32,120 nucleotides of DNA from Deinococcales bacterium (GTDB lineage: Bacteria; Deinococcota; Deinococci; Deinococcales; JAAFIG01). Below are positions 7,221-28,536 of this stretch, piece by piece (within the stretch, counting starts at the first letter, position 1; each line of letters begins with the position of its first letter). The stretch spans positions 1 to 32,120 of the forward strand of contig JAAFJQ010000015.1 of assembly GCA_013298185.1 (NCBI GenBank). Direction: 5' to 3'. The notes beneath the pieces were generated by a model. The model was not told the DNA's origin. It worked only from the letters and a program-made list of their open reading frames with translations, and ran no database searches. The position numbers were made by a program, and so were the translations under genes.

Positions 7221-8057
7221 TTACAAATTTTGAATGAGTGGTAAAAAAGCACTGACCAATTCAGATTGAAATTGCTGATTGCGTTGCTGTTCAAAGTAAT
7301 CCACAACTTTTGATAGCTCCCAAGCAGGTTTATAAGGTCGGGGTTGAATCAGCGCATCGTAAACATCAATGATGCTAAAAATATGGGCAAGTCTTGGAAT
7401 GTCAAAAGCATGTTTTTGAGTTGGATAACCTGTGCCATCAAAACGCTCATGATGGTATAAAATTACTTCAAGTGCGGCAATTGGCACTTCGGGTATCAGC
7501 ATTGCAATGTGATGCCCTATCAGGCTGTGCTGCTCAATAATTTGGCGTTCCTCGAGACTTAAAGCGCCTGGTTTTTGTAAAATCTGGCTCGGCATGGCAA
7601 TTTTACCAATGTCATGCAGGTAAGCCCCTATACGTAAAGCAAAGGTTTCTTGTTGACTTAAACCCAAGACACCTGCCAATTGCTGACTCAAACCCACCAC
7701 CCGTGCAATGTGTCCATGGGTTTCAATGTCGTGTTGCTCGAGCGCAATGCTAAGGGCATTGAGCAGTCGTTCTAAGCGGCTGTTTTGTGTGCTGTAAAGC
7801 AGTTGTAGTTGTTCGTTGGTGGCATTTGGCTTTGGCTCGAGGTGCGCGAAAGTCTTAGCCAGTAAAACTCGAGCTGCGCTAAATTCACCAAGGCGCAGTG
7901 CAGTGTAGGCGCCTAACAAGGAAGCCCGAATCTCGAGCAGCGAATCTTGGTTGGCGATGGCTTGGATAATCACTTGTTGCGATAAGCCAAAGCTGCGATT
8001 GGCATCGGTTAGTGCCAAGCGTTCAGCTAAGTCCAATTGAGGATTATTGGTCATCAT
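7221..8057 (-). CDS. HD-GYP domain protein, probable cyclic-di-GMP phosphodiesterase
   Basis: This cytoplasmic protein has 278 residues. Residues 1-105 are helical and could be a TPR-like or other sensory region. The HD-GYP domain (about 110-278) has H114, HDIGK (148-152), H177, HHERFDGTGYP (202-212) and DVYDALIQPRPYK (231-243). All catalytic and signature residues are present, so it should hydrolyse cyclic di-GMP. It is the last gene of the minus-strand run, 13 bases after the small gene at 8071, and may be the distal end of the gas vesicle operon. It is the only HD-GYP domain here with fully standard motifs. ATG codons at 8057 and 8054 are both possible starts. Confidence 0.88.
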   Translation of the reverse strand: MMTNNPQLDLAERLALTDANRSFGLSQQVIIQAIANQDSLLEIRASLLGAYTALRLGEFSAARVLLAKTFAHLEPKPNATNEQLQLLYSTQNSRLERLLNALSIALEQHDIETHGHIARVVGLSQQLAGVLGLSQQETFALRIGAYLHDIGKIAMPSQILQKPGALSLEERQIIEQHSLIGHHIAMLIPEVPIAALEVILYHHERFDGTGYPTQKHAFDIPRLAHIFSIIDVYDALIQPRPYKPAWELSKVVDYFEQQRNQQFQSELVSAFLPLIQNL

Positions 8058-8070
8058 AAAGCCCCTAAAT

Positions 8071-8307
8071 TTATAGGGTGTCTTTCAAAAAAAGATGCAG
8101 TTCACGGCGTGGTATGGTGGCAAAACCAACCCATTTGGGTTGATGGAATTGGTTGTACACGCCAATTGAAATGAGGTAATGTTCTTGGAACGAAGTCAGG
8201 CGCAAAATCGTGTTTTCGCGTTCGATTAAAACTGCATCTTTTTCGATGTGTGTCCAAGCCCCCAAGTCGGCACAAAGATGCTCGATTTCCTGCACCCAAC
8301 GGTTCAT
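8071..8307 (-). CDS. Small hypothetical protein next to the two-component genes
   Basis: This 78-residue protein starts MNRWVQEIEHLCADLGAW. A GTG two codons upstream (8313) directly abuts the GGGAG ribosome binding site, whereas the ATG at 8307 is five bases from it, so 8307 is chosen. The chain alternates short hydrophobic strands and ends in LHLFLKDTL, suggesting a small alpha/beta domain. I recognise no family. It lies between the response regulator (36 bases upstream) and the HD-GYP gene (13 bases downstream), so it is probably co-transcribed and could be an accessory of the signalling system. Confidence 0.6.
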   Translation of the reverse strand: MNRWVQEIEHLCADLGAWTHIEKDAVLIERENTILRLTSFQEHYLISIGVYNQFHQPKWVGFATIPRRELHLFLKDTL

Positions 8308-8343: not shown

Positions 8344-9003
8344 TCATATGATTCCAGCCCTGAGCGCCCGCACTGCTGCGTGGGTTCGGTCTGAAGCGCG
8401 GAGTTTACCGATTACATTCTGGACAATTTTTTTAATTGTTTCGGGGCTGACATCAAGGCGCTGCGCGATTTCTTTGTTGGTTTTACCATCAGCAATTAAG
8501 ATCAATGCCTCGTGTTCTCGAGGGGTCAGCGCATCCATCTCGAGTGAGTCTTCGACACTTGGTTTCATGGCAAAATTCATGGCGCCGCGCAGCAAACTGC
8601 TCGAGATCAGCACCCCACCACTCGAGGCGGCGCGAATCATTTCCAGCACTTCTTTACGCGGTGAGTCTTTGAGTAAATACCCAGATGCTCCAGCTTGAAT
8701 GGCTTGCAGCACATGACTTTCGGTGTGGTGCATGGTCAGCATGATAATGGTGCATTGTGGCAATAAACGCTTGACCAGTTTGGTGGCTTCTAAGCCGTCC
8801 ATTTGTGGCATGGAAATGTCCATTAAAATAATTCGGGGCTGTAACTCTTGCGCTAAACTCACGGCGCGTTCACCGTTTTCGGCTTCGCCAATCACTTCAA
8901 AGCCAGCGTCAGTCTCGAGCATGGCGCGTAAGCCTTCGCGGACAATCGCGTGGTCGTCTACCAGCATGATGCTGACTTTATCGTTGGTTGAAATTTCAAG
9001 CAT
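8344..9003 (-). CDS. NarL/LuxR-family response regulator
   Basis: This 219-residue transcription factor has a receiver domain (about 10-125) with the acidic pair D16-D17, phospho-acceptor D62 (LMDISMP) and K112. A LuxR-type helix-turn-helix (about 155-215) follows: LTPREHEALILIADGKTNKEIAQRLDV and then SPETIKK. It is the natural partner of the HisKA_3-type kinase, whose stop codon it overlaps by 8 bases. Because the kinase is coupled to gvpJ, the regulator is the distal product of the gas vesicle operon. I infer that it controls gvp transcription. NarL-like half-sites in the gvpA upstream region (22353-22409) support this but do not prove it. Confidence 0.92.
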   Translation of the reverse strand: MLEISTNDKVSIMLVDDHAIVREGLRAMLETDAGFEVIGEAENGERAVSLAQELQPRIILMDISMPQMDGLEATKLVKRLLPQCTIIMLTMHHTESHVLQAIQAGASGYLLKDSPRKEVLEMIRAASSGGVLISSSLLRGAMNFAMKPSVEDSLEMDALTPREHEALILIADGKTNKEIAQRLDVSPETIKKIVQNVIGKLRASDRTHAAVRALRAGII

Positions 9004-12000
9004 GGTCTATCCTTTGCGGCGCAGCACTGGTATTTGAAGCATAGAACTGACTCATCAAAACAGGGTCAGCGTGGTTGGGCATCACAAAGCGCACGGTTGT
9101 ACCGCTGCCCGCAGTGCTGTGAACACTGAGCTGAGCGCCGAGCAGTTCAGCTCGTTTTTTCATGCCTATTGTGCCTACTCCTTGGTGCAATTTCGGTTGA
9201 GGTGGTTTTTCGGGATCAAAGCCAATGCCGTTGTCCTGAATTTCTAGAATTGTGGTGTACTTATCGTGCCAAAGGTACAGACGCACATGACTGGCTTTGG
9301 CATGACGACGGGTGTTGTTCAGCGCTTCGATCACAATTCGGTACAAGGTCACTTCGGCATCTCGAGCCAAGCGCACTGGGTCAAAATGAAAATCGGTTTG
9401 CCAGTTTTCCGAGCGTGCCATTTCCTCGAGCCGTTGGCGCAGCACATCACGCAAACCCAATATCTCGAGGTCTGGTGGAATTAAATCAGTAATCGTTTCT
9501 CGGATTTGCCGAATCGAAGAGCCAATCAGTTCTAAGCTGCGCTCGAGTTGCTTTTTTAAGGTGCTGTTCTCGATTTCCGAGGTTTCTAAGCTGGTTTCAA
9601 TGAAACGCAATGCCGAAACCATGGTTTGTGCTGGACCATCGTGCAAATCTATGGCGATGCGTTCGCGTTCGGCTTCTTGGGCGCGTAGGGTGACTTCAAT
9701 AAATTGCTTAGAGCGCTCTTCGCGTTCGATGATAAAACGATATGCCAAGACCCGTTCGAGCGCTTCAGTGAACTGGGCTTTGTACTCCAGAAGCGTAATG
9801 CTTTCTGCCAAATGCCCGACATCATTCCAGCGCATGGTTAAAAAACCACTTAAGCCCTGAACCGACTCGAGTTTTAAGACGCTGTTGCTGTCTTGGGAAA
9901 GGACTGTGTCGAGGTCTGGTTGAAAAACAATGGTTTCGCTTTTTTGAGTGCTAATGTAAAGATCTGGGGCAATGATCTGAGCTTCTTTTGCGCCCAAAAA
10001 CTGACTCAGTGCCAGCAGCGCGGCATTCAGGTCATCGGCGTTGTAAAATTTATTCTGGCTGTGACTGACGTGGTACTGTACGGCTTTTTCTTTGGAATCG
10101 GTGATGTCTGTGACCATGGCGGTGATCCCAACCAAAGCGGCTTGTTCATAACGAAAATGCAGTGTGGCTTCAATCCAACGCAGACGGCTGGCACGGCTGA
10201 CCAAGCGCATCTCGAGACGTAAACTGGGTTGTTGTTGCTTGACGGCTCGGGTAATCTGACGAAAAACCATACTGCGATGACTGCCGTGAACAAACTTTAA
10301 GACACTGCTGCTGTTGAGCGTCGTGCTTTCACCGTAACCACTTAAACGCTTCCAAGCTGGGTTGGCATAGGTGGCACGCCCTTGTGGGTCAATCCGAAGA
10401 ATCGCATCGTTGATGCTTTCAACCACCGTGCGGTAACGGTGTTCAGAATCACGCAATTGGGCTTCTTGAAGGAGGCGTTCGGTCAAGTCAGTGCCTGTAA
10501 AGACCAAAAATTCAATTTCTTTGCTGCTGTTGCCAATGATCGTTTTGACAGTCCAAGCCACTTGGCGTTGTTCTCCTGAAACGGGTATCACCGCCACGGT
10601 TTCAGTGGCTGCATCTTTGGGATTGGCTAAAAATAATTTAAGGTTTTCCATGGCTTTGTCGTTAAGCGGAATTAATTCAGTGACGTGCGTGCCGAGGGCG
10701 CGTTGGGTATCCACATTGAGTTTTTGTCCAATGGTTTGATTTAAGCGAACCACATTGCCTTGGGCGTTACAAACCACAACCAAGGAAGTTGAACTGTCCA
10801 AAATTGAACTGACAAACTGATGCTGGCGTTGTTGTTTTAAGCCAATCAAACGCAATTCGGTGGTGTCATGACCCACCCAGTACAAACGCTGTTCGGTCAA
10901 GGAAACACTGATATTCCAGGTTAAGTACCTTGACCAGTTGGCATCGGGGTAAGCCCTTGTTTCGAGCGGCATCGGTTGGGAAGTAAAGGTCAGTTGTTGG
11001 ATGGCTTCCTTGACTTTTTGGGCATTGTCTGATTCAAGTTTCGCCCAAACAGCATGTCCCATGGTTGCCCCAAACATCGCTTCGGCATGAACATTGGCAT
11101 AAGTCACCAAGCCAGATAGGTCAGTCACGACAATTGCATCCTGCACCATTTCAAGTAACCGATGCTGCTCAACATGTTGTTTGCGTAAGCTCGAGACATC
11201 GTGTTGCAGTGAAATAAAGTACGGAATACTGCCATCAGAGGCATAAATCGGGGTGACGCTGATTTGCGACCAGAATTCTGTGCCGTCCTTGCGATAATTG
11301 ATCACTTCGGTTTGGCAAGGCTCACCGCGTTCAATGCCATTTTTGAGCAAGTCAAGCGCTTCACGGCTGCTGCGAACGCCTTGTAGCATTCGCGGGGTGC
11401 GCCCGAGAACATCGGTGATGTGATAACCCGTGGTGCGTAAAAAGGCTGGGCTGACCTCGAGAATTCGCTGTTGGTGATCGGTTAAAATCACAGCTGCATC
11501 CGAAGAAATCAGTGCCTGCCTGAAAATATCACTCGGGCGCAAGGTGGTGGGTTGGGCGATTTGATCTGGTTCAATCCAAAGAAGCACCAAGCCGCCTTCG
11601 CCGAATTCATCATTGATTAATTTGGTTTCAATGTGTTGCCTAACCGCTTCGGTGTGCTTCATCTGGGTGTTCATCTCGAGCGCCGCATGGAAACTATGAC
11701 GCACTTCTTGCACCTGTGCCAGCAGTTGTGGGCGCTTCTCGGCATCCACCAATTCCAAAATATCAAGTAAAGTGCTGCGTAGAGGGTCGAGATGCTTTAA
11801 GAGCATCGGACTGGCATAACACACATAACCACGTTCATCAAGCAAAGCAAATTGAGCTTGACTGGGCAAAGCCACCTGATTGATTTTTTCACGATGCGGC
11901 TTTTGCTGACGAATGTTCTTATAATTCTGATCAGGTGAAACCATCAAGCGCAGCACCCGTCCAAGCGCATCCACCATCCGAGGTTCAAAAGCTGTGCCAC

Positions 12001-12529
12001 GTTCATTCCAAAGTTCATACAACGCCCCTGTACCACTGATGGCACGGCGCATCCACCAATCGGCAGTCATGGCAACAAAGGCATCCACCACCGCAAAAAG
12101 CCGAGCCGAAAGTGGAATCTCGAGTCCATGCAAGCCCTTGGGATAGCCTGTGCCATCCCAGCGTTCGTGATGATATAAGACCAAATCCAAACTGGTTTTT
12201 GGTAAATCCAAATGCCCAAGTAAATCAATACCCAAATCCACATGAGCGCGAATACTACGCCATTGGTTTTCAGACAGCATTTGGGTTTCTTGCAACAAAT
12301 GCCGTGGCAAATCGAGCTTACCAAGGTCATGCAAATACGCCCCAACTTCAATCGCTTGGATCTCTTCTTCGGATAAACCAAGTTCAGCTGCTATGGAAAC
12401 CGCCAGCATCACAATTCGGTCGGTATGACCTTGTGGTTCAACCCCACGGGCTTCGAGGGTCAAACCCAAAGCCCGCCAAACACGGCGTTGGTCATAAAAC
12501 GAACTTGGGCTAACGGCATCCATATTCAT
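8996..12529 (-). CDS. Hybrid sensor: HD-GYP domain, PAS repeats and histidine kinase
   Basis: This 1177-residue signalling protein has no evident membrane segment. Residues 30-195 are an HD-GYP domain with HDLG (67-70) and HHERWDGTGYP (120-130). The usual D-A-L...RPY segment is changed to DAFVAMTADWWMRR. About four PAS domains follow (about 335-445, 455-560, 570-685, 695-810), then a GAF-like region (about 820-930). The kinase core is HisKA_3 type: phospho-acceptor H963 in IAIDLHDGPAQTM, N-box EALNNTRRHAKA (1068-1079), DNGIGFD (1099-1105) and a GVGTIGM lid (1117-1123). Its ATG overlaps the gvpJ stop as ATGA, and its own stop overlaps the response-regulator start. Putting an HD-GYP domain at the front of a NarX-like kinase is unusual. 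It would let one protein sense several inputs and possibly cyclic di-GMP. Confidence 0.9.
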   Translation of the reverse strand: MNMDAVSPSSFYDQRRVWRALGLTLEARGVEPQGHTDRIVMLAVSIAAELGLSEEEIQAIEVGAYLHDLGKLDLPRHLLQETQMLSENQWRSIRAHVDLGIDLLGHLDLPKTSLDLVLYHHERWDGTGYPKGLHGLEIPLSARLFAVVDAFVAMTADWWMRRAISGTGALYELWNERGTAFEPRMVDALGRVLRLMVSPDQNYKNIRQQKPHREKINQVALPSQAQFALLDERGYVCYASPMLLKHLDPLRSTLLDILELVDAEKRPQLLAQVQEVRHSFHAALEMNTQMKHTEAVRQHIETKLINDEFGEGGLVLLWIEPDQIAQPTTLRPSDIFRQALISSDAAVILTDHQQRILEVSPAFLRTTGYHITDVLGRTPRMLQGVRSSREALDLLKNGIERGEPCQTEVINYRKDGTEFWSQISVTPIYASDGSIPYFISLQHDVSSLRKQHVEQHRLLEMVQDAIVVTDLSGLVTYANVHAEAMFGATMGHAVWAKLESDNAQKVKEAIQQLTFTSQPMPLETRAYPDANWSRYLTWNISVSLTEQRLYWVGHDTTELRLIGLKQQRQHQFVSSILDSSTSLVVVCNAQGNVVRLNQTIGQKLNVDTQRALGTHVTELIPLNDKAMENLKLFLANPKDAATETVAVIPVSGEQRQVAWTVKTIIGNSSKEIEFLVFTGTDLTERLLQEAQLRDSEHRYRTVVESINDAILRIDPQGRATYANPAWKRLSGYGESTTLNSSSVLKFVHGSHRSMVFRQITRAVKQQQPSLRLEMRLVSRASRLRWIEATLHFRYEQAALVGITAMVTDITDSKEKAVQYHVSHSQNKFYNADDLNAALLALSQFLGAKEAQIIAPDLYISTQKSETIVFQPDLDTVLSQDSNSVLKLESVQGLSGFLTMRWNDVGHLAESITLLEYKAQFTEALERVLAYRFIIEREERSKQFIEVTLRAQEAERERIAIDLHDGPAQTMVSALRFIETSLETSEIENSTLKKQLERSLELIGSSIRQIRETITDLIPPDLEILGLRDVLRQRLEEMARSENWQTDFHFDPVRLARDAEVTLYRIVIEALNNTRRHAKASHVRLYLWHDKYTTILEIQDNGIGFDPEKPPQPKLHQGVGTIGMKKRAELLGAQLSVHSTAGSGTTVRFVMPNHADPVLMSQFYASNTSAAPQRIDHA

Positions 12530-16220: not shown

Positions 16221-17198
16221 TTAATTACTGACCATTTTCTGGACGCGAACGCCTACGCCGCTGCCAGCCAACTCCAAGAGTTCCCGCGCCCAACTGAGTT
16301 CCTGCATGTCCTCGGCGGCAAACGGCTGGTGTGGATTGCGGTCTGGATGACGCTCGAGCGCCAATTGCTTAAAAGCACGTTGAATCTGAGCAGGAGCATT
16401 GGGTGTATTCGATGGTAAACGCAGAATCAAACGGGCTTTCTCGAGGTCAGCCACCCGAGGTTCAATCACTTCAAGTAAACGAAAAGCCGTAGCAACCTGC
16501 GGAGCGGACAGGGCAAAAACGATTCGCGCCCCGAGTTCAATTTGAATTTTTTCTAGTGTAGCACGTAAATTCATTTCTAGGGCTTGTTCAGCTAACAGTG
16601 CGATGTTAAACGCCACATCTTCTTGGTCGCGTCCGACAAAACCATACTCGGAAAGCATTGGCTCGAGTTGCAACAAAACCTTATCGGTCAGGCGCTGGCG
16701 TTCATGCTCGAGGTGCATTGAAATCAGTTCACCCAGACGGGCTTGATCCTCGAGTTGAATTTTTCCACTGATTTGCAAGTCAGACTTAAATTTCTGCACG
16801 TCTTGGTTACTGGCGGCGGTTTGAATTTCCCCATTTAAATCCCAACGCGCCGTCAAATGAAACTGCACTTTATGGGCAACGGTTTGTAACTGCTCGAGCA
16901 GCAGGGCTTCGTGGCGTTGCAATAAAAATTCAATTGCGCCTAGGCTTGATAAACCACTGCCAAAACGAGTTGGTAATAGTGCTTTGACTTTGACCTGACC
17001 AAGAATCTCGAGTTGCTTTTGGTACAGCCCAAGAATCAGTGATGAATCTTTTCCAAGTTCAAACGCACCATCTGAAACCAAAGCGGCAACCTGACCGTGC
17101 CGAACAATATACAAATGCCGACCTTGTAGACCGGTTAAGCCTTCGGGCAATTGAACGTCCGAGCTGACAATGGCGTAAATATGACAATGATTGGACAT
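16221..17198 (-). CDS. GvpF/L protein fused to a C-terminal J domain
   Basis: The protein has 325 residues from the ATG at 17198, chosen because GGGAG lies four bases upstream and the chain then opens MSNHCHIYAIVSSDVQLPEG as in other F/L proteins. Residues about 1-245 are a GvpF/L module (ALLPTRFGSGLSSL, AHKVQFHLTARW). Residues about 255-312 read as a J domain: LILRLPSNTPNAPAQIQRAF, then KQLALERHPDRNP with the diagnostic HPD at 284-286, then a third helix (DMQELSWARELLELA). J domains stimulate Hsp70 (DnaK) ATPase, so the fusion should recruit DnaK to GvpA or nascent shells. It follows the Cdc48-type ATPase gene by 23 bases. The usual G-PFAPY ending of F/L proteins is absent, replaced by the J domain. 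Confidence 0.85.
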   Translation of the reverse strand: MSNHCHIYAIVSSDVQLPEGLTGLQGRHLYIVRHGQVAALVSDGAFELGKDSSLILGLYQKQLEILGQVKVKALLPTRFGSGLSSLGAIEFLLQRHEALLLEQLQTVAHKVQFHLTARWDLNGEIQTAASNQDVQKFKSDLQISGKIQLEDQARLGELISMHLEHERQRLTDKVLLQLEPMLSEYGFVGRDQEDVAFNIALLAEQALEMNLRATLEKIQIELGARIVFALSAPQVATAFRLLEVIEPRVADLEKARLILRLPSNTPNAPAQIQRAFKQLALERHPDRNPHQPFAAEDMQELSWARELLELAGSGVGVRVQKMVSN

Positions 17199-17221
17199 AA
17201 TGCTCCCAGTGGATTGTGTGG

Positions 17222-19429
17222 CTAACTGAGTTCTTGCCACGCTAAATCAAAATGTTGGTCTTTAATCCAACAAATCCGCTCTGATTCTATATCTCCCATT
17301 AGGGTATTGTTGTGCAGAATGTGCATTGAAAGAGTATCCAAGCGTACATTATCAGGCTGATTTTTAGTAACATTTTCTACATTTGACAGGGCATTATTAA
17401 AGCAAAGTGCTTCCCTGAGCGCCGATAACGCCGCTCGGCGCACCAGCAACGCCAACTTCGCGCCACTCCAACCTTGGGTCTTATCCGCCCAGACCTCGAG
17501 TGAATCTATTTGGTGTGGACGGTCACGCAAATGCACCTGCAAAATCTCGAGGCGTTCTTGTTGGGTTGGCAAGGTAAATTCAAGCACCTGCTCGAACCGC
17601 CCAGCCCGCAACAGCGCAGGGTCAAGGGCTTGAGGGCGATTGGTTGCCCCAATAATCACCACGCTGCCCAAAGCATTTGTGCCGTCCATTTCAGCTAAGA
17701 ACTGCCCGACAATTCGCTCTGAAACCGCGTCCTGACCTGTGTCGCGGCTGGAGAGCAGCGCATCTATTTCATCAAAAAACACAATGCACGGCGCGGTGGC
17801 TCGAGCCTTAGCAAACAATTCACGCACAGCTTTTTCGGATTCACCATAGTATTTACTTAAGAATTGAGCGCCACGCACCGAAATAAAATTGGCTTGAGTT
17901 TCCTTGGCAACTGCCTTAGCCACTAGCGTTTTGCCTGTGCCGGGCGCACCAGTCAGTAGAATCCCTCGAGGTGGCTCGAGTTTCAGGGCAGCGAACAACT
18001 CAGGGTGCAAAAGTGGCAATTCAACTGCTTCTCGCAGTGCTGTTTTAATTTGTGCCAAGCCGCCAATATCAGACCAACTGGCTTCGGAAATATCGTTCGC
18101 GCCTTCTCGGATCAGACTCGGTGCGATTTCACGCAGCGCACTTTGGAAATCATCATGCCGCACCTCGAGCGCCAAGAGTTCAGAGGCACTCGGTTGACCA
18201 CCCGCAGCAATCCAGAGCGGCAATTGCAAACGCACTCGGTTCATGGCAGCTTCGCGGCACAGTGCTGCCAAATCCGCACCAACAAAACCATGGGTGATGT
18301 TGGCGAGTTGCTGCAAATCCACATTGGCTGCCAAAGGCATTCCCCTTGTGTGAACCTCGAGAATTTCACGACGACCCGCAATGTCTGGCGGGGCAATCAG
18401 CACCTCACGGTCAAAACGCCCCGGGCGGCGCAAGGCAGGGTCGAGGCTATCAGGACGATTGGTTGCACCAATCACCACAACCTGACCGCGTCCACCCAGA
18501 CCATCCATGAGCGATAGAAGCTGGGCTACGACCCGTTTTTCGACTTCACCCTGAACTTCGGAGCGCTTGGGGGCAATGGCATCAATTTCATCTAGGAAAA
18601 CAATACTTGGCGCTTTTTTACGCGCCTCTTCAAAGACTTCACGAAGGCGTTTTTCTGAATCCCCATAGAATTTACCAATAATCTCAGGACCCGCGACACT
18701 AAAAAAACTGGCTTTGGTTTCCCTTGCCACGGCTCGAGCAATCGTGGTTTTACCCGTGCCGGGGGGACCAAAAAGCAACACGCCCTTGGGTGCTTCGATA
18801 CCAAGTTGCTCAAAGACTTGTGGGTAACGCAGAGGCAACTCCACAAGTTCACGAACTCGAGCCACTTCCTTGGTCAAACCACCGATGTCATCGTAATTCA
18901 CAGCTGTTGCCGCAGGAGCATTGGCGCTGCGTTCAGACGCCCCATCCAATGCCAAACGGGTACTCGGCACAATCACCGAAGCCGCATTTGGCTCGAGTTG
19001 ACGCACCGTGAACTCAACGGGTTTAGCGCCGTACAAATCCACACGAATTCGATCACCAAGCGAAACCACCCGATCAAGCAGCAAGGTTCTCAGGTCAGCA
19101 ATCGCAGGACTCGAGCCGTGTGCTTCTAGCACCACACCTACTGCTTGACTGGGTTGCACGACCTTGACCCGCACCATTTCTGCCAATGCCACACCCGCAT
19201 TGGCTCGAGACAAGGCATCCAACAAAATACTGGCATCCATCTCTGAACCCGTCGCGGCAGGAAGAACCCGCACCGCCGAAACTCGAGAACCGTGCAGTTC
19301 GAGCAGCCCACCGCTTCGCACCCCAAGTTCCGCCATCAGTTTAAGCGAAACTCGAGCCAAACCTCGACCCGCATCCCGAGGAGCAAGTTCAGCCACCCGA
19401 AGCTCAAGGATAGAATCAATCACAGGCAT
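17222..19429 (-). CDS. Cdc48/VAT-type AAA+ ATPase with two AAA domains
   Basis: This 735-residue protein has the full Cdc48 plan. The N domain (about 1-165) is a double-psi barrel plus CDC48_2-like part. D1 has GPPGTGKT (221-228), IVFLDE (276-281) and the arginine-finger region RRPGRFD (334-340). D2 has GAPGTGKT (494-501), IVFFDE (549-554) and RAGRFE (608-613). It should form a hexamer that threads or remodels proteins. Such proteins are common in archaea and eukaryotes and uncommon in bacteria. Its place between Hsp20 and a J-domain GvpF/L suggests a role in remodelling GvpA aggregates or recycling vesicles. The last 55 residues are Asn-rich and unlike Cdc48 tails. AAGGAT precedes the ATG. 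Confidence 0.92.
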   Translation of the reverse strand: MPVIDSILELRVAELAPRDAGRGLARVSLKLMAELGVRSGGLLELHGSRVSAVRVLPAATGSEMDASILLDALSRANAGVALAEMVRVKVVQPSQAVGVVLEAHGSSPAIADLRTLLLDRVVSLGDRIRVDLYGAKPVEFTVRQLEPNAASVIVPSTRLALDGASERSANAPAATAVNYDDIGGLTKEVARVRELVELPLRYPQVFEQLGIEAPKGVLLFGPPGTGKTTIARAVARETKASFFSVAGPEIIGKFYGDSEKRLREVFEEARKKAPSIVFLDEIDAIAPKRSEVQGEVEKRVVAQLLSLMDGLGGRGQVVVIGATNRPDSLDPALRRPGRFDREVLIAPPDIAGRREILEVHTRGMPLAANVDLQQLANITHGFVGADLAALCREAAMNRVRLQLPLWIAAGGQPSASELLALEVRHDDFQSALREIAPSLIREGANDISEASWSDIGGLAQIKTALREAVELPLLHPELFAALKLEPPRGILLTGAPGTGKTLVAKAVAKETQANFISVRGAQFLSKYYGESEKAVRELFAKARATAPCIVFFDEIDALLSSRDTGQDAVSERIVGQFLAEMDGTNALGSVVIIGATNRPQALDPALLRAGRFEQVLEFTLPTQQERLEILQVHLRDRPHQIDSLEVWADKTQGWSGAKLALLVRRAALSALREALCFNNALSNVENVTKNQPDNVRLDTLSMHILHNNTLMGDIESERICWIKDQHFDLAWQELS

Positions 19430-22015: not shown

Positions 22016-22051
22016 TATAAAAATGTTGGGACGGAGAAACCCCCGTCCCAA
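22016..22051 (-). terminator. Attenuator-like hairpin just after gvpA
   Basis: On the minus strand TTGGGACGG and CCGTCCCAA (complements of 22043-22051 and 22026-22034) form a perfect 9-bp stem with an 8-base loop, followed by CATTTTTATAA. It starts five bases after the gvpA stop codon. It should end most transcripts after gvpA and let some read through into the assembly genes. Such an arrangement would make GvpA far more abundant than the accessory proteins. Confidence 0.8.
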
Positions 22052-22056
22052 TCAAC

Positions 22057-22275
22057 TTAGGCTGCTGGTGCGGCGATGGTGCTGGTTAAGCCAATGGCTT
22101 CGGCGTACTTTAAGTACGTTTCAACGCTGGCGGCAACCACGCGGGCTTCGATTGATAAGAGTTCAATGCCCACCAATGATACGCGCACAAATGCGTCCAC
22201 GACGATTCCTTTGTCGAGGATACGGTCTACCACTTCACCGAGACTCGAGCTGCCCATGCTTTTTTCTACTGCCAT
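22057..22275 (-). CDS. gvpA: Gas vesicle structural protein GvpA
   Basis: This is the main shell subunit, 72 residues, close to the usual length of about 70. The core [20 protein letters not shown], then [20 protein letters not shown] and [13 protein letters not shown], is the standard GvpA sequence of helix, two strands and helix. The ATG at 22275 is set by AGGAGG at 22281-22286. A longer open frame extends 68 codons upstream, but that part covers the promoter and operator region and is not coding. GvpA is first in the operon, followed by a hairpin that should raise its level above the others. The tail TSTIAAPAA is short and Ala-rich. Confidence 0.97.
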
Positions 22276-22286: not shown

Positions 22287-22352
22287 GATAGGTTTGCTTG
22301 CCGGTTTGCCCGGTTGGGACTATCTTGCAGAAAACCTTGGTTCTCGAGGTAG

Positions 22353-22416
22353 CCCCAATTGGGGATGGTGGTCTTACCCAATTGGGGGTGGGTGGTGTAC
22401 CCATTTGGGTATACCC
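22353..22416. promoter_or_regulatory. Array of three phased palindromes between the divergent operons
   Basis: CCCCAATTGGGG (22353-22364), CCCAATTGGG (22377-22386) and CCCATTTGGG (22400-22409) have centres at 22358.5, 22381.5 and 22404.5, exactly 23 bp apart. A further palindrome, GGGTATACCC (22407-22416), overlaps the third. The second and third extend to TACCCA/TGGGTA half-sites, like the TACYYMT heptamer bound by NarL-family regulators. The array lies 78 bases upstream of gvpA and about 90 bases upstream of the divergent operon. I see no good -35/-10 pair for gvpA, which would fit activator dependence. Confidence 0.75.
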
Positions 22417-22503
22417 ACTCGAGGCTGTTGTGATGTTGCTTAAAGTGGGTAAGTTATGCCTCATGAATCGAAATCCCAATCGAAAAGGGGGCGAAAAGTG
22501 AGC

Positions 22504-23799: not shown

Positions 23800-24441
23800 A
23801 TGAGTGAAGTTTTTAGAGATGGATTTATAGATGAAATTGTCGAAGCCTACGTCAAAGACTTTGGCGAGCGCGTAGAAAACACCGACAAATTTGAACACTA
23901 CGCCCCCGGTCATGCGCGTCGTGTGGCAGAAGTCAGTGTTGCACTTTGCGAAGCGCTGGATTTTGAAGAAGAAGACATCCGCGTTGTCAAAACCGCTGCC
24001 CTACTGCACGACATCGGCGAAGTGATTCAGCGCCATGCCTTTTATGGAGCGCCGCGTCCGCTGACACCACAAGAAACCGTAGAAATGTGGCAACACAGTT
24101 TAATCGGTGAACGCGAAGTGGCGCGTCGTGGTTTTGGTCGCCGTGAACAACTCTTGGTGCGTTGGCATCACGAGCGTTGGAATGGTCAAGGCTACCCCGA
24201 TATGCTCTTTGGACCAGATTTGCCGCTTGGCGCTCGGATTATTCGCTTGGCAGACACTTGGGATGCGCTGACCAATGACCGCCCTTGGCGCAAAGTCATG
24301 CCGCTCGAGACGGCTCTGGACGAAGTTCGCCTTGGGGCTGGCACAGAATTTGATCCAGAATTGGCGCAGCTCTTCTTGGAACTCCAAGCCACCAACAGCC
24401 TTAAACCAAGTGGGAAGTATGCGCTTTCAGGAGGTGCATGA
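23800..24441 (+). CDS. HD-GYP-like protein with altered signature residues
   Basis: This 213-residue protein is almost entirely one HD domain. Visible residues are H38 (GHARRV), HD at 70-71 in LLHDIGEV, H99, HHERWNGQGYP (123-133) and DTWDALTNDRPWR (152-164). Metal ligands are kept, but the HD-GYP Lys (HDxGK) is Glu and the Asp of HHExxDG is Asn. It could still be a phosphodiesterase, or it could bind cyclic di-GMP or another nucleotide without cleaving it. GGAG six bases before the ATG marks the start. The next gene overlaps its stop as ATGA. Confidence 0.85.
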   Translation: MSEVFRDGFIDEIVEAYVKDFGERVENTDKFEHYAPGHARRVAEVSVALCEALDFEEEDIRVVKTAALLHDIGEVIQRHAFYGAPRPLTPQETVEMWQHSLIGEREVARRGFGRREQLLVRWHHERWNGQGYPDMLFGPDLPLGARIIRLADTWDALTNDRPWRKVMPLETALDEVRLGAGTEFDPELAQLFLELQATNSLKPSGKYALSGGA

Positions 24442-26715: not shown

Positions 26716-28536
26716 GTGGACAGTAAACCTCAGTCCGGCGCAGTTGATGCCAGCAACATAACAGCACTCCTTTCGGATTTGCTGCTCGACGCCCAAGTGA
26801 TGCAAATTGAATTTAGACACGACACCGGAATTATTGGTGGCATCTGGATCAGGGGCGATCAACTGATTGCCGCCAAAATCGGAGATGTGCGCGGCGCAGA
26901 AGCCATCGAAGCGCTGCTGACCCAACCAGATTTACGGGCTTATACCGCCTACCGCTTAAATGCCAAAGATACCTTGGGCATAGAACCGATTGGCAGTCTT
27001 AGCCAAATTTTAGACGACCTGACTTTTCCAGCCGTACCGCGTCGGCGTTTGGTTGAACCAAGCCAAGCTGGTGAAAACCAAGCTCTCGAGGAATCCAAGA
27101 AAGCCTTATCCCCTAGCCAGAGTTTGGAAGAGGTCTTACAACTGCCACCAGAGGTCTTAGAAGCTCAAGCCCAAGCAACAGAAACCGCTGGCAAAGCCGA
27201 AGTCGTTGAAACTCGAGAAATTGAAGTCATTGAAGATCAAAGATCTGAAGTCGTTGAAGCTCGAGAAGTTGAAATAATCGCAGAAGCTCCAGAAGTTGTT
27301 GAAACTCAAGAACCAGAAGCTATTGCCCAAACTCGAGAACCAGAAGTTATTGCAGAAGCTCCAGAAGTTGTTGAAATTCAAGAACCGGAAACTCAAGAAC
27401 CACGAGCTATTGAGACTCCAGAAGTCGAAATTGTTGCAGAAACTCGAGAAGTTGAAATAATCGCAGAAGCCACAGAAGTTGAAATTGTGGAGACTCAAGA
27501 ATCCGAAACTCGAGAAGTTGAAATTGTTGCAGGAACTTCAGAAGTTGTTGAAGCTCGAGAAGTCGAAATTGTTGCCGAGACTCGAGAACCTGAAGCTATT
27601 GTCGAACCAGAAGCACCACAAGCTGTTGCCGAGACTCGAGAACCTGCTCCTCAGCCTCAACAAGCCAAAGTCAATCCAGCTCCACAAAAAAACACTCAGA
27701 AACAAGGTAAGTCAAAAGAAAAAGCCCAACGTATTCTAGCAGTGGTCAGTCCCAAAGGTGGGGTTGGCAAAACCACCATCTCGCTGAACTTAGCTGTGAT
27801 GTACGCCCAACAGGGCTTATCGGTGATTCTGATTGACACCGACCCTCAAGGCGGTATCAGCAACTCACTGATCTCTTCTGATGATGCACCAGCCGGTATT
27901 TACGATGTGCTGATGGGCAGAATCCCTTTTCGTCAAGCCATCAAAAATACACGCTTTGAGAACTTGCGTTTGATCACGGCTGGCGTACTGCTGCCCGAAG
28001 AAGTGATTACTCGGAGTGGACAACTCTCTAGCCCAGAACTGTGGCAAAAAGTCCTCTCCCCTATTGGCAAAATCGCTGATGTGGTGATTGTGGACACCCC
28101 AGCAGGTGTACAAGGTGTAACCACGCCGATTCTGACGGCAGCCACCCATGCGATTGCCGTCAGCCAACCTGAGCCTCTGAGCTTACGCGCCTTAGGGCAA
28201 CTCAAAAAAACCATGAGCAGCCTCGAGAAACTTGGCAAAGTCGCAGAACTCAGCGGTGTGGTGATCAACATGGCATTTGCTGAGCGCCTTGTGCCTCTGA
28301 ACATTTTGCAAACCACTTCTAAAGGTGTGATTAACCCGCAAACCCTGCTCGAGCCGATGCTGGTTCGCAATGACGCGGTTTTCAAAGCCTCGATCAGTGC
28401 TACGCCTGTGGCGCTCTCCACCCAAGCCAATCAGCAAATCTGGGTTTCGGCACTGCATGAACTTTCAGATTCAATTTTGCAACGAATTGGTTTACAGGCT
28501 GTGGATACAAACGTGATCGAATCGTTGTTGGTATAG
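26716..28536 (+). CDS. DUF4388 domain fused to a ParA/MinD-type ATPase through a Glu-rich repeat
   Basis: This 606-residue protein starts at a GTG with GGGAGG four bases upstream. Residues about 10-105 are a DUF4388 (PATAN) domain: ALLSDLLLDAQVMQIEFRHD, then GGIWIRGDQLIAAKIGDVRG. Residues about 160-312 are an acidic repeat of VVETREPEVIAEAPE type. Residues about 338-590 are a ParA ATPase with the deviant Walker A KGGVGKTT (347-354), DTDPQGG (374-380) and VVIVDTPAG (456-464). ParA proteins position plasmids, chromosomes and protein cargo by gradients on the nucleoid. I infer positioning or segregation of gas vesicles or of a signalling cluster. No ParB is seen nearby. DUF4388 appears again in the next gene. 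Confidence 0.88.
   Translation: MDSKPQSGAVDASNITALLSDLLLDAQVMQIEFRHDTGIIGGIWIRGDQLIAAKIGDVRGAEAIEALLTQPDLRAYTAYRLNAKDTLGIEPIGSLSQILDDLTFPAVPRRRLVEPSQAGENQALEESKKALSPSQSLEEVLQLPPEVLEAQAQATETAGKAEVVETREIEVIEDQRSEVVEAREVEIIAEAPEVVETQEPEAIAQTREPEVIAEAPEVVEIQEPETQEPRAIETPEVEIVAETREVEIIAEATEVEIVETQESETREVEIVAGTSEVVEAREVEIVAETREPEAIVEPEAPQAVAETREPAPQPQQAKVNPAPQKNTQKQGKSKEKAQRILAVVSPKGGVGKTTISLNLAVMYAQQGLSVILIDTDPQGGISNSLISSDDAPAGIYDVLMGRIPFRQAIKNTRFENLRLITAGVLLPEEVITRSGQLSSPELWQKVLSPIGKIADVVIVDTPAGVQGVTTPILTAATHAIAVSQPEPLSLRALGQLKKTMSSLEKLGKVAELSGVVINMAFAERLVPLNILQTTSKGVINPQTLLEPMLVRNDAVFKASISATPVALSTQANQQIWVSALHELSDSILQRIGLQAVDTNVIESLLV
27200..27660 (+). repeat. Degenerate Glu-rich coding repeat with many CTCGAG sites
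   Basis: The stretch is built of imperfect units such as GAAGTTGAAATTGTTGC and ACTCGAGAA, encoding E-V-E-I-V-A-E-T-R-E variants. About eight CTCGAG sites fall here, read as Thr/Ala-Arg-Glu (xCT CGA GAA). This is a different frame from the Leu-Glu reading in the LEPV repeats. Confidence 0.8.

Follow-up and report, generated by a model that had tools for sequence, protein, structure and literature searches.

An evenly spaced palindrome array upstream of gvpA in Deinococcota and its candidate two-component regulator

Three palindromes with centres exactly 23 bp apart lie between gvpA (minus strand) and a divergent operon (plus strand) in the window, the whole 32,120-nucleotide stretch analysed here, which is contig C57 of a Deinococcales genome (4.4 Mb, 457 contigs). 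The array is conserved in the other gas-vesicle genomes of the phylum, is unique as a set, sits at a fixed distance from a -10-like block and is co-inherited with a response regulator gene. We have little doubt that the three palindromes form an operator array for the flanking promoters. Our main reading, to which we give a probability of about 0.6, is that they are activator sites of the local two-component system, the candidate regulator, and possibly serve both operons; the identity of the binder, activation rather than repression and control on the divergent side are what we infer.

Table 1. Coordinates of the features discussed (positions in the window)
Feature	Position	Strand	Remarks
Response regulator, NarL/LuxR-type	8344..9003	-	proposed array binder; Pfam Response_reg and GerE
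Histidine kinase	8996..12529	-	proposed regulator partner; HD-GYP-type, PAS, HisKA_3 and HATPase domains
Coiled-coil protein with C-terminal winged helix	21164..21979	-	gvpC position; rival binder
Terminator-like hairpin 3' of gvpA	22026..22051	-	11 bp stem, T-rich tail
gvpA, gas vesicle structural protein	22057..22275	-	first gvp gene; Pfam PF00741
Predicted gvpA -10, CAAGAT	22322..22327	-	31.5 bp from S1 centre in all three genomes
S1, AGCCCC-AATT-GGGGAT	22351..22366	.	centre 22358.5; promoter-proximal for gvpA
S2, TTACCC-AATT-GGGGGT	22374..22389	.	centre 22381.5
S3, GTACCC-ATTT-GGGTAT	22397..22412	.	centre 22404.5
Near-site ATACCCACTCGAGGCT	22411..22426	.	overlaps S3; almost identical to third site of G001
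Tentative divergent-operon -10, TAAAGT	22441..22446	+	weak; from start-codon alignment
First divergent gene, 411 aa	22498..23733	+	no family found; start reassigned
HD-GYP-type protein	23800..24441	+	96% and 90% identical in relatives
Conserved protein, 312 aa	24438..25376	+	no family match; 88% and 78% identical in relatives

The array and its conservation

The first-pass annotation of the window had reported three palindromes with a 23-bp period, and both the centres and the exact spacing were reproduced (Table 1). The window sites contain two exact copies of CCCAATTGGG (22354-22363 and 22377-22386) and one of CCCATTTGGG (22400-22409). There are 11 copies of CCCN4GGG in the window with one equally spaced triple among them, and none of 1000 window sequences simulated with a first-order Markov model contained such a triple.

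Only 3 of 111 Deinococcota genomes carry gvpA: that of the window (G000), one of the same genus (G001, record JAAFIG010000007.1) and one of another genus (G002). These were compared with G003, a sister genome that lacks gvpA and gas vesicles, giving four genomes of one family (~17.7 Mb). Conservation upstream of gvpA had been named beforehand as a point on which the proposal could fail, and the array was found at the equivalent place in both G001 and G002, with spacings of 24/24 bp versus 23/23 bp in the window; the three genomes are few, related and not independent. The intergenic sites are AGCCCCGACTGGGGAT, ATACCCGAATGGGTAT and ATACCCACTCGAGGGT in G001 and AGCCCCAACTGGGGAT, ATACCCGAATGGGTAT and ATACCCAAATGAGGGT in G002. 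In both relatives S1 reads AGCCCC-NANT-GGGGAT and S2 reads ATACCC-GAAT-GGGTAT with perfectly palindromic arms. S3 is perfect in the window only, being degenerate in the relatives (ATACCC-N6-GGGT, six bases between the arms). The G001-like near-copy of the third site that overlaps S3 in the window argues that the array has been remodelled.

Across the sites the CCC and GGG arms are constant and the central bases variable (AATT, GACT, AACT, GAAT, ATTT). Given the different centres and the 24/24 spacing of the relatives, the motif is better written as CCC-N4-GGG, in most cases with TA on its flanks, rather than CCCAATTGGG; S1 and the window S2 lack TA on one or both arms. Hence the CCCAATTGGG-type palindrome described by the first-pass annotation is present in the window, but its AATT centre is not the motif, and comparison of the sites gives (A)TACCC-N4-GGGTA(T) or CCCC-N4-GGGG as the part that is conserved.

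A genome-wide motif scan, suggested at the outset, gave a divided answer. CCCN4GGG pairs at 23 bp were found in G000 only at the gvpA promoter array (control 0) and pairs at 24 bp in G001 and G002 only at the equivalent gvpA promoter, all by whole-genome scans, and the scan of G003 detected no pair at 23 or 24 bp and no array. Single CCCAATTGGG copies, however, are not special: G000 has 15, of which the 13 outside the array fall mostly within coding frames, and exact CCCAATTGGG was discarded as the motif. About one chance CCCN4GGG pair would be expected per spacing, a rough estimate that takes its frequency from these same loci, and thus we place weight on the triple and its conservation and not on the rarity of pairs. 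A wide regulon was also discarded, the count of TACCCN4GGGTA being near chance and all inspected near-matches lying within open reading frames; as these lie in coding sequence, the binder looks dedicated to the gvpA promoter. A copy of ACCCATTTGGGT at 8129-8140 was set aside, being inside an 80-aa gene behind the regulator and absent from the counterparts in the relatives. Outside the window, ACCCATTTGGAT occurs four times with an exact 26-bp period (G000:C35:5321-5410, L023). Even spacing, retention in the gas-vesicle relatives and uniqueness as a set together indicate that the palindromes are very probably docking sites of a dedicated regulator.

Two other readings of the palindromes themselves seem very improbable. 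One would make them operators of the CsoR/FrmR family (DUF156), which here read roughly TA-CCCC-TA(T)-GGGG-TA. CsoR-family genes are present in all four genomes and adjacent sites such as TACCCCCATAAGGGGATA are superficially similar to those of the array, but the CsoR-type sites found next to metal-ATPase genes carry longer runs of C and G, mostly with TA or TAT in the middle, and adjoin the Shine-Dalgarno sequence. In the array, by contrast, N4 is constant with A and T in set positions, and the three phased sites lie further upstream; moreover, CsoR is also found in G003, which lacks the array. With no long C/G tracts, central TA or neighbouring metal genes at the array, CsoR/DUF156 is largely excluded. 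Paired CsoR-type sites were seen between csoR and metal-ATPase genes at L057 1928-2076 and L058 1039-1243. The other reading, only marginally less improbable, lets the palindromes work at the RNA level (as terminator, attenuator or leader hairpins) or treats the array as a centromere-like site of the ParA/MinD-type ATPase (26716-28536) that the divergent operon encodes together with a PAS protein. The array strand does fold well (z -4.9), but so would any palindromes, and RNA structure was discarded as an explanation; the transcript predicted on the gvpA side begins outside the array, a T-run is lacking, and changes between the genomes fall mostly in loops and are not compensatory. As for a centromere, a ParB gene was not found among the genes scanned.

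Promoter geometry on the two sides

In the relatives the -10-like block upstream of gvpA reads CAAGAT and CATGAT (consensus CAWGAT), the longer block being GCAAGAT/GCATGAT at an ungapped distance to S1. None of 20,000 composition shuffles gave an equally good block-to-S1 match. If CAWGAT is read as the -10 element, the centres of S1, S2 and S3 would lie at about -43.5, -66.5 and -89.5 in the window. No -35 element was recognisable at the gvpA promoter and a consensus promoter scan did not find a standard promoter facing gvpA. Placement of S1 at about -43.5 together with the lack of a recognisable -35 gives the picture of an activator-dependent gvpA promoter. The array consists of evenly spaced inverted repeats suited to dimers, and the nearest falls within the -42 to -45 expected for a NarL/FixJ-type regulator when the start is taken from the -10-like block.

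On the other side, the ATG at 22456 is probably the wrong start for the first divergent gene, which probably begins at GTG 22498, preceded by a G-rich Shine-Dalgarno-like sequence common to the three genomes. The C-terminal part of its product, which has no family match, presumably resembles the core of a dihydrolipoyl acyltransferase, minus the catalytic motif. Sequences resembling a -10 element (TAAAGT, TAGTTT and TAAACT) are found 57-58 bp before this GTG in the three genomes, and with these tentative elements S3 would lie near -48.5 in the window, -41.5 in G001 and -42.5 in G002. The first-pass annotation had suggested that the regulator also drives the divergent operon. The site positions make this plausible, although the divergent -10 elements are weak guesses, weaker than that of gvpA, and we lean towards the array controlling both operons. 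Within the phylum the 312-aa protein of the divergent operon is found in the three gas-vesicle genomes only; its predicted structure has a mean pLDDT of 33.

Comparison with known activator arrays supplies both likenesses and differences. BvgA, a NarL/FixJ-family activator, occupies the Bordetella fha promoter as three head-to-head dimers with a 22-bp period; the nearest of them adjoins the -35, and the primary site spans 14 bp as an inverted heptad without a gap, TAAGAAATTTCCTA (PMC7250471). The array shares with fha the three evenly spaced head-to-head sites and, by the predicted start, the nearest site abutting the -35 position, and the arm geometry of TACCCATTTGGGTA equals that of TAAGAAATTTCCTA. 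However, the spacing here is 23 bp (24 bp in the relatives), the half-site sequence is another one, and three recognisable palindromes lie between two divergent operons. Lacking inverted heptads with centres 22 bp apart, the array seems to work alike without being a member of the BvgA type, and its 23-24 bp spacing would rotate each dimer by 69-103 degrees relative to the next (10.5 bp per turn), less neat than the 22 bp of BvgA. NarL activates ogt from -44.5 (PMC7419079), close to the -43.5 estimated for S1, and the NarL test site TACCCCTAAAGGGGTA (PMC4549865) contains the CCC-N4-GGG core. A resemblance of the half-sites to the NarL heptamer had been claimed; it stands for S3, where TACCCAT fits TACYYMT, but the layout is 7-0-7 and not 7-2-7 and S1 has no outer TA. 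The arms of S2 and S3 are 2 bp closer than in the NarL sites (14 bp in total), and pairs of TACYYMT heptamers separated by 2 bp, as in the E. coli 7-2-7 sites of ogt and narG, were not found in the array.

The candidate binder and its rivals

The gas-vesicle cluster on the minus strand runs from gvpA (22275) through the histidine kinase, the response regulator and a small gene to an HD-GYP-type gene; gvpA is 97% and 96% identical in the relatives. It also encodes a GvpF/GvpL-family protein that ends in a DnaJ domain (16221-17240), and its neighbours are a CDC48-type ATPase and an Hsp20-like protein. Assignment of the gene at 8344 to the NarL/LuxR type held up: the protein has Response_reg and GerE domains, its nearest solved full-length structures are VraR and NarL, and its DNA-binding domain is closest to entries 4wsz and 4wt0. 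It is a distant NarL relative (E 8.7e-37; 164 versus 250 bits, far under the NCBI NarL cut-off). Orthologs (85% and 71% identity) lie beside the gvp genes in both relatives, whereas the best match in G003 is a 43% paralog and the ortholog is missing, so that a linked NarL/FixJ-type regulator is co-inherited with the array. The recognition helix, SPETIKK-x-VQN-x-IGKLRASDRTHAAVRA, is almost invariant in the three orthologs, unlike in the paralogs. We therefore consider the clustered response regulator a reasonably good candidate for the array binder, although in principle one of its paralogs might bind there.

An unlinked chromosomal regulator, for instance a different response regulator of the LuxR type or a global one, is an unlikely binder but the least unlikely of the rivals. 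Searching with the regulator gave 31-40 matches per genome, some of them full-length paralogs of ~40-45% identity. A regulator with many targets fits poorly with near-matches that, where inspected, lay within open reading frames, and G003, without gas vesicles, has no array. Rather more doubtful is that the array is the operator of the coiled-coil/winged-helix protein encoded directly behind gvpA and near the array, the chief rival within the cluster, acting as an autoregulatory repressor or activator. Its C-terminal winged helix is predicted with high confidence (H-H-H-E-E), has a sub-threshold MarR_2 match and is kept in the three gas-vesicle genomes. The gene, however, occupies the gvpC position and its product is mostly a predicted helix of ~160 residues, as expected of a protein associated with vesicles; as a whole it is poorly conserved (42% and 32%), and a structure search gave weak, general winged-helix matches, none with E below 0.001.

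To return to the two-component system, the regulator had been placed in the gvpA transcription unit. The genes from gvpA to the regulator have one orientation and are tightly packed and mostly overlapping, which makes a common transcript plausible. Against this, a strong terminator-like hairpin follows gvpA, with stable hairpins also 3' of gvpA in both relatives, and expression of the regulator from the gvpA promoter would need read-through. Hence the autoregulatory loop proposed by the first-pass annotation would rest on read-through past this hairpin, and an internal promoter for the regulator is possible.

Proposed mechanism and significance

We propose that the kinase would drive phosphorylation of the NarL/FixJ-type regulator, three dimers of which would occupy S1, S2 and S3 side by side. 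The S1 dimer at about -43.5 would recruit RNA polymerase to the gvpA promoter, which has no recognisable -35, and the S2 and S3 dimers would strengthen binding, while in the opposite direction the array would probably activate the operon that starts at GTG 22498. The gas-vesicle structural genes and the accessory signalling operon would thereby be turned on jointly, and read-through past the hairpin would put the kinase and regulator under weak positive feedback. As a whole, a dedicated two-component system with an HD-GYP-type domain in its kinase that activates gvp and a lineage-specific divergent operon through one bidirectional three-dimer array is a tentative picture.

To our knowledge direct evidence on gas vesicle activation is confined to a few organisms, and a literature search by title found no paper on gas vesicles in Deinococcota. 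In Serratia 39006 GvrA, GvrB and GvrC are likewise encoded in the gas-vesicle cluster and control the gvpA operon, but the proposal for GvrA is that it works together with sigma-54 (PMC11778176), whereas here a NarL-type regulator and three palindromic sites are predicted. Three HD-GYP-type domains are encoded within and near the gas-vesicle locus (8996-12529, fused to the histidine kinase; 7221-8057; and 23800-24441), and a link from cyclic-di-nucleotides to flotation is possible.

The gain is a sharply defined control element with one main candidate regulator and possibly co-controlled genes of unassigned role, and gas vesicles seem to be rare in this phylum. If the reading of an HD-GYP-type kinase and a bidirectional array is true, flotation would be tied to cyclic-di-nucleotide signalling in Deinococcota.
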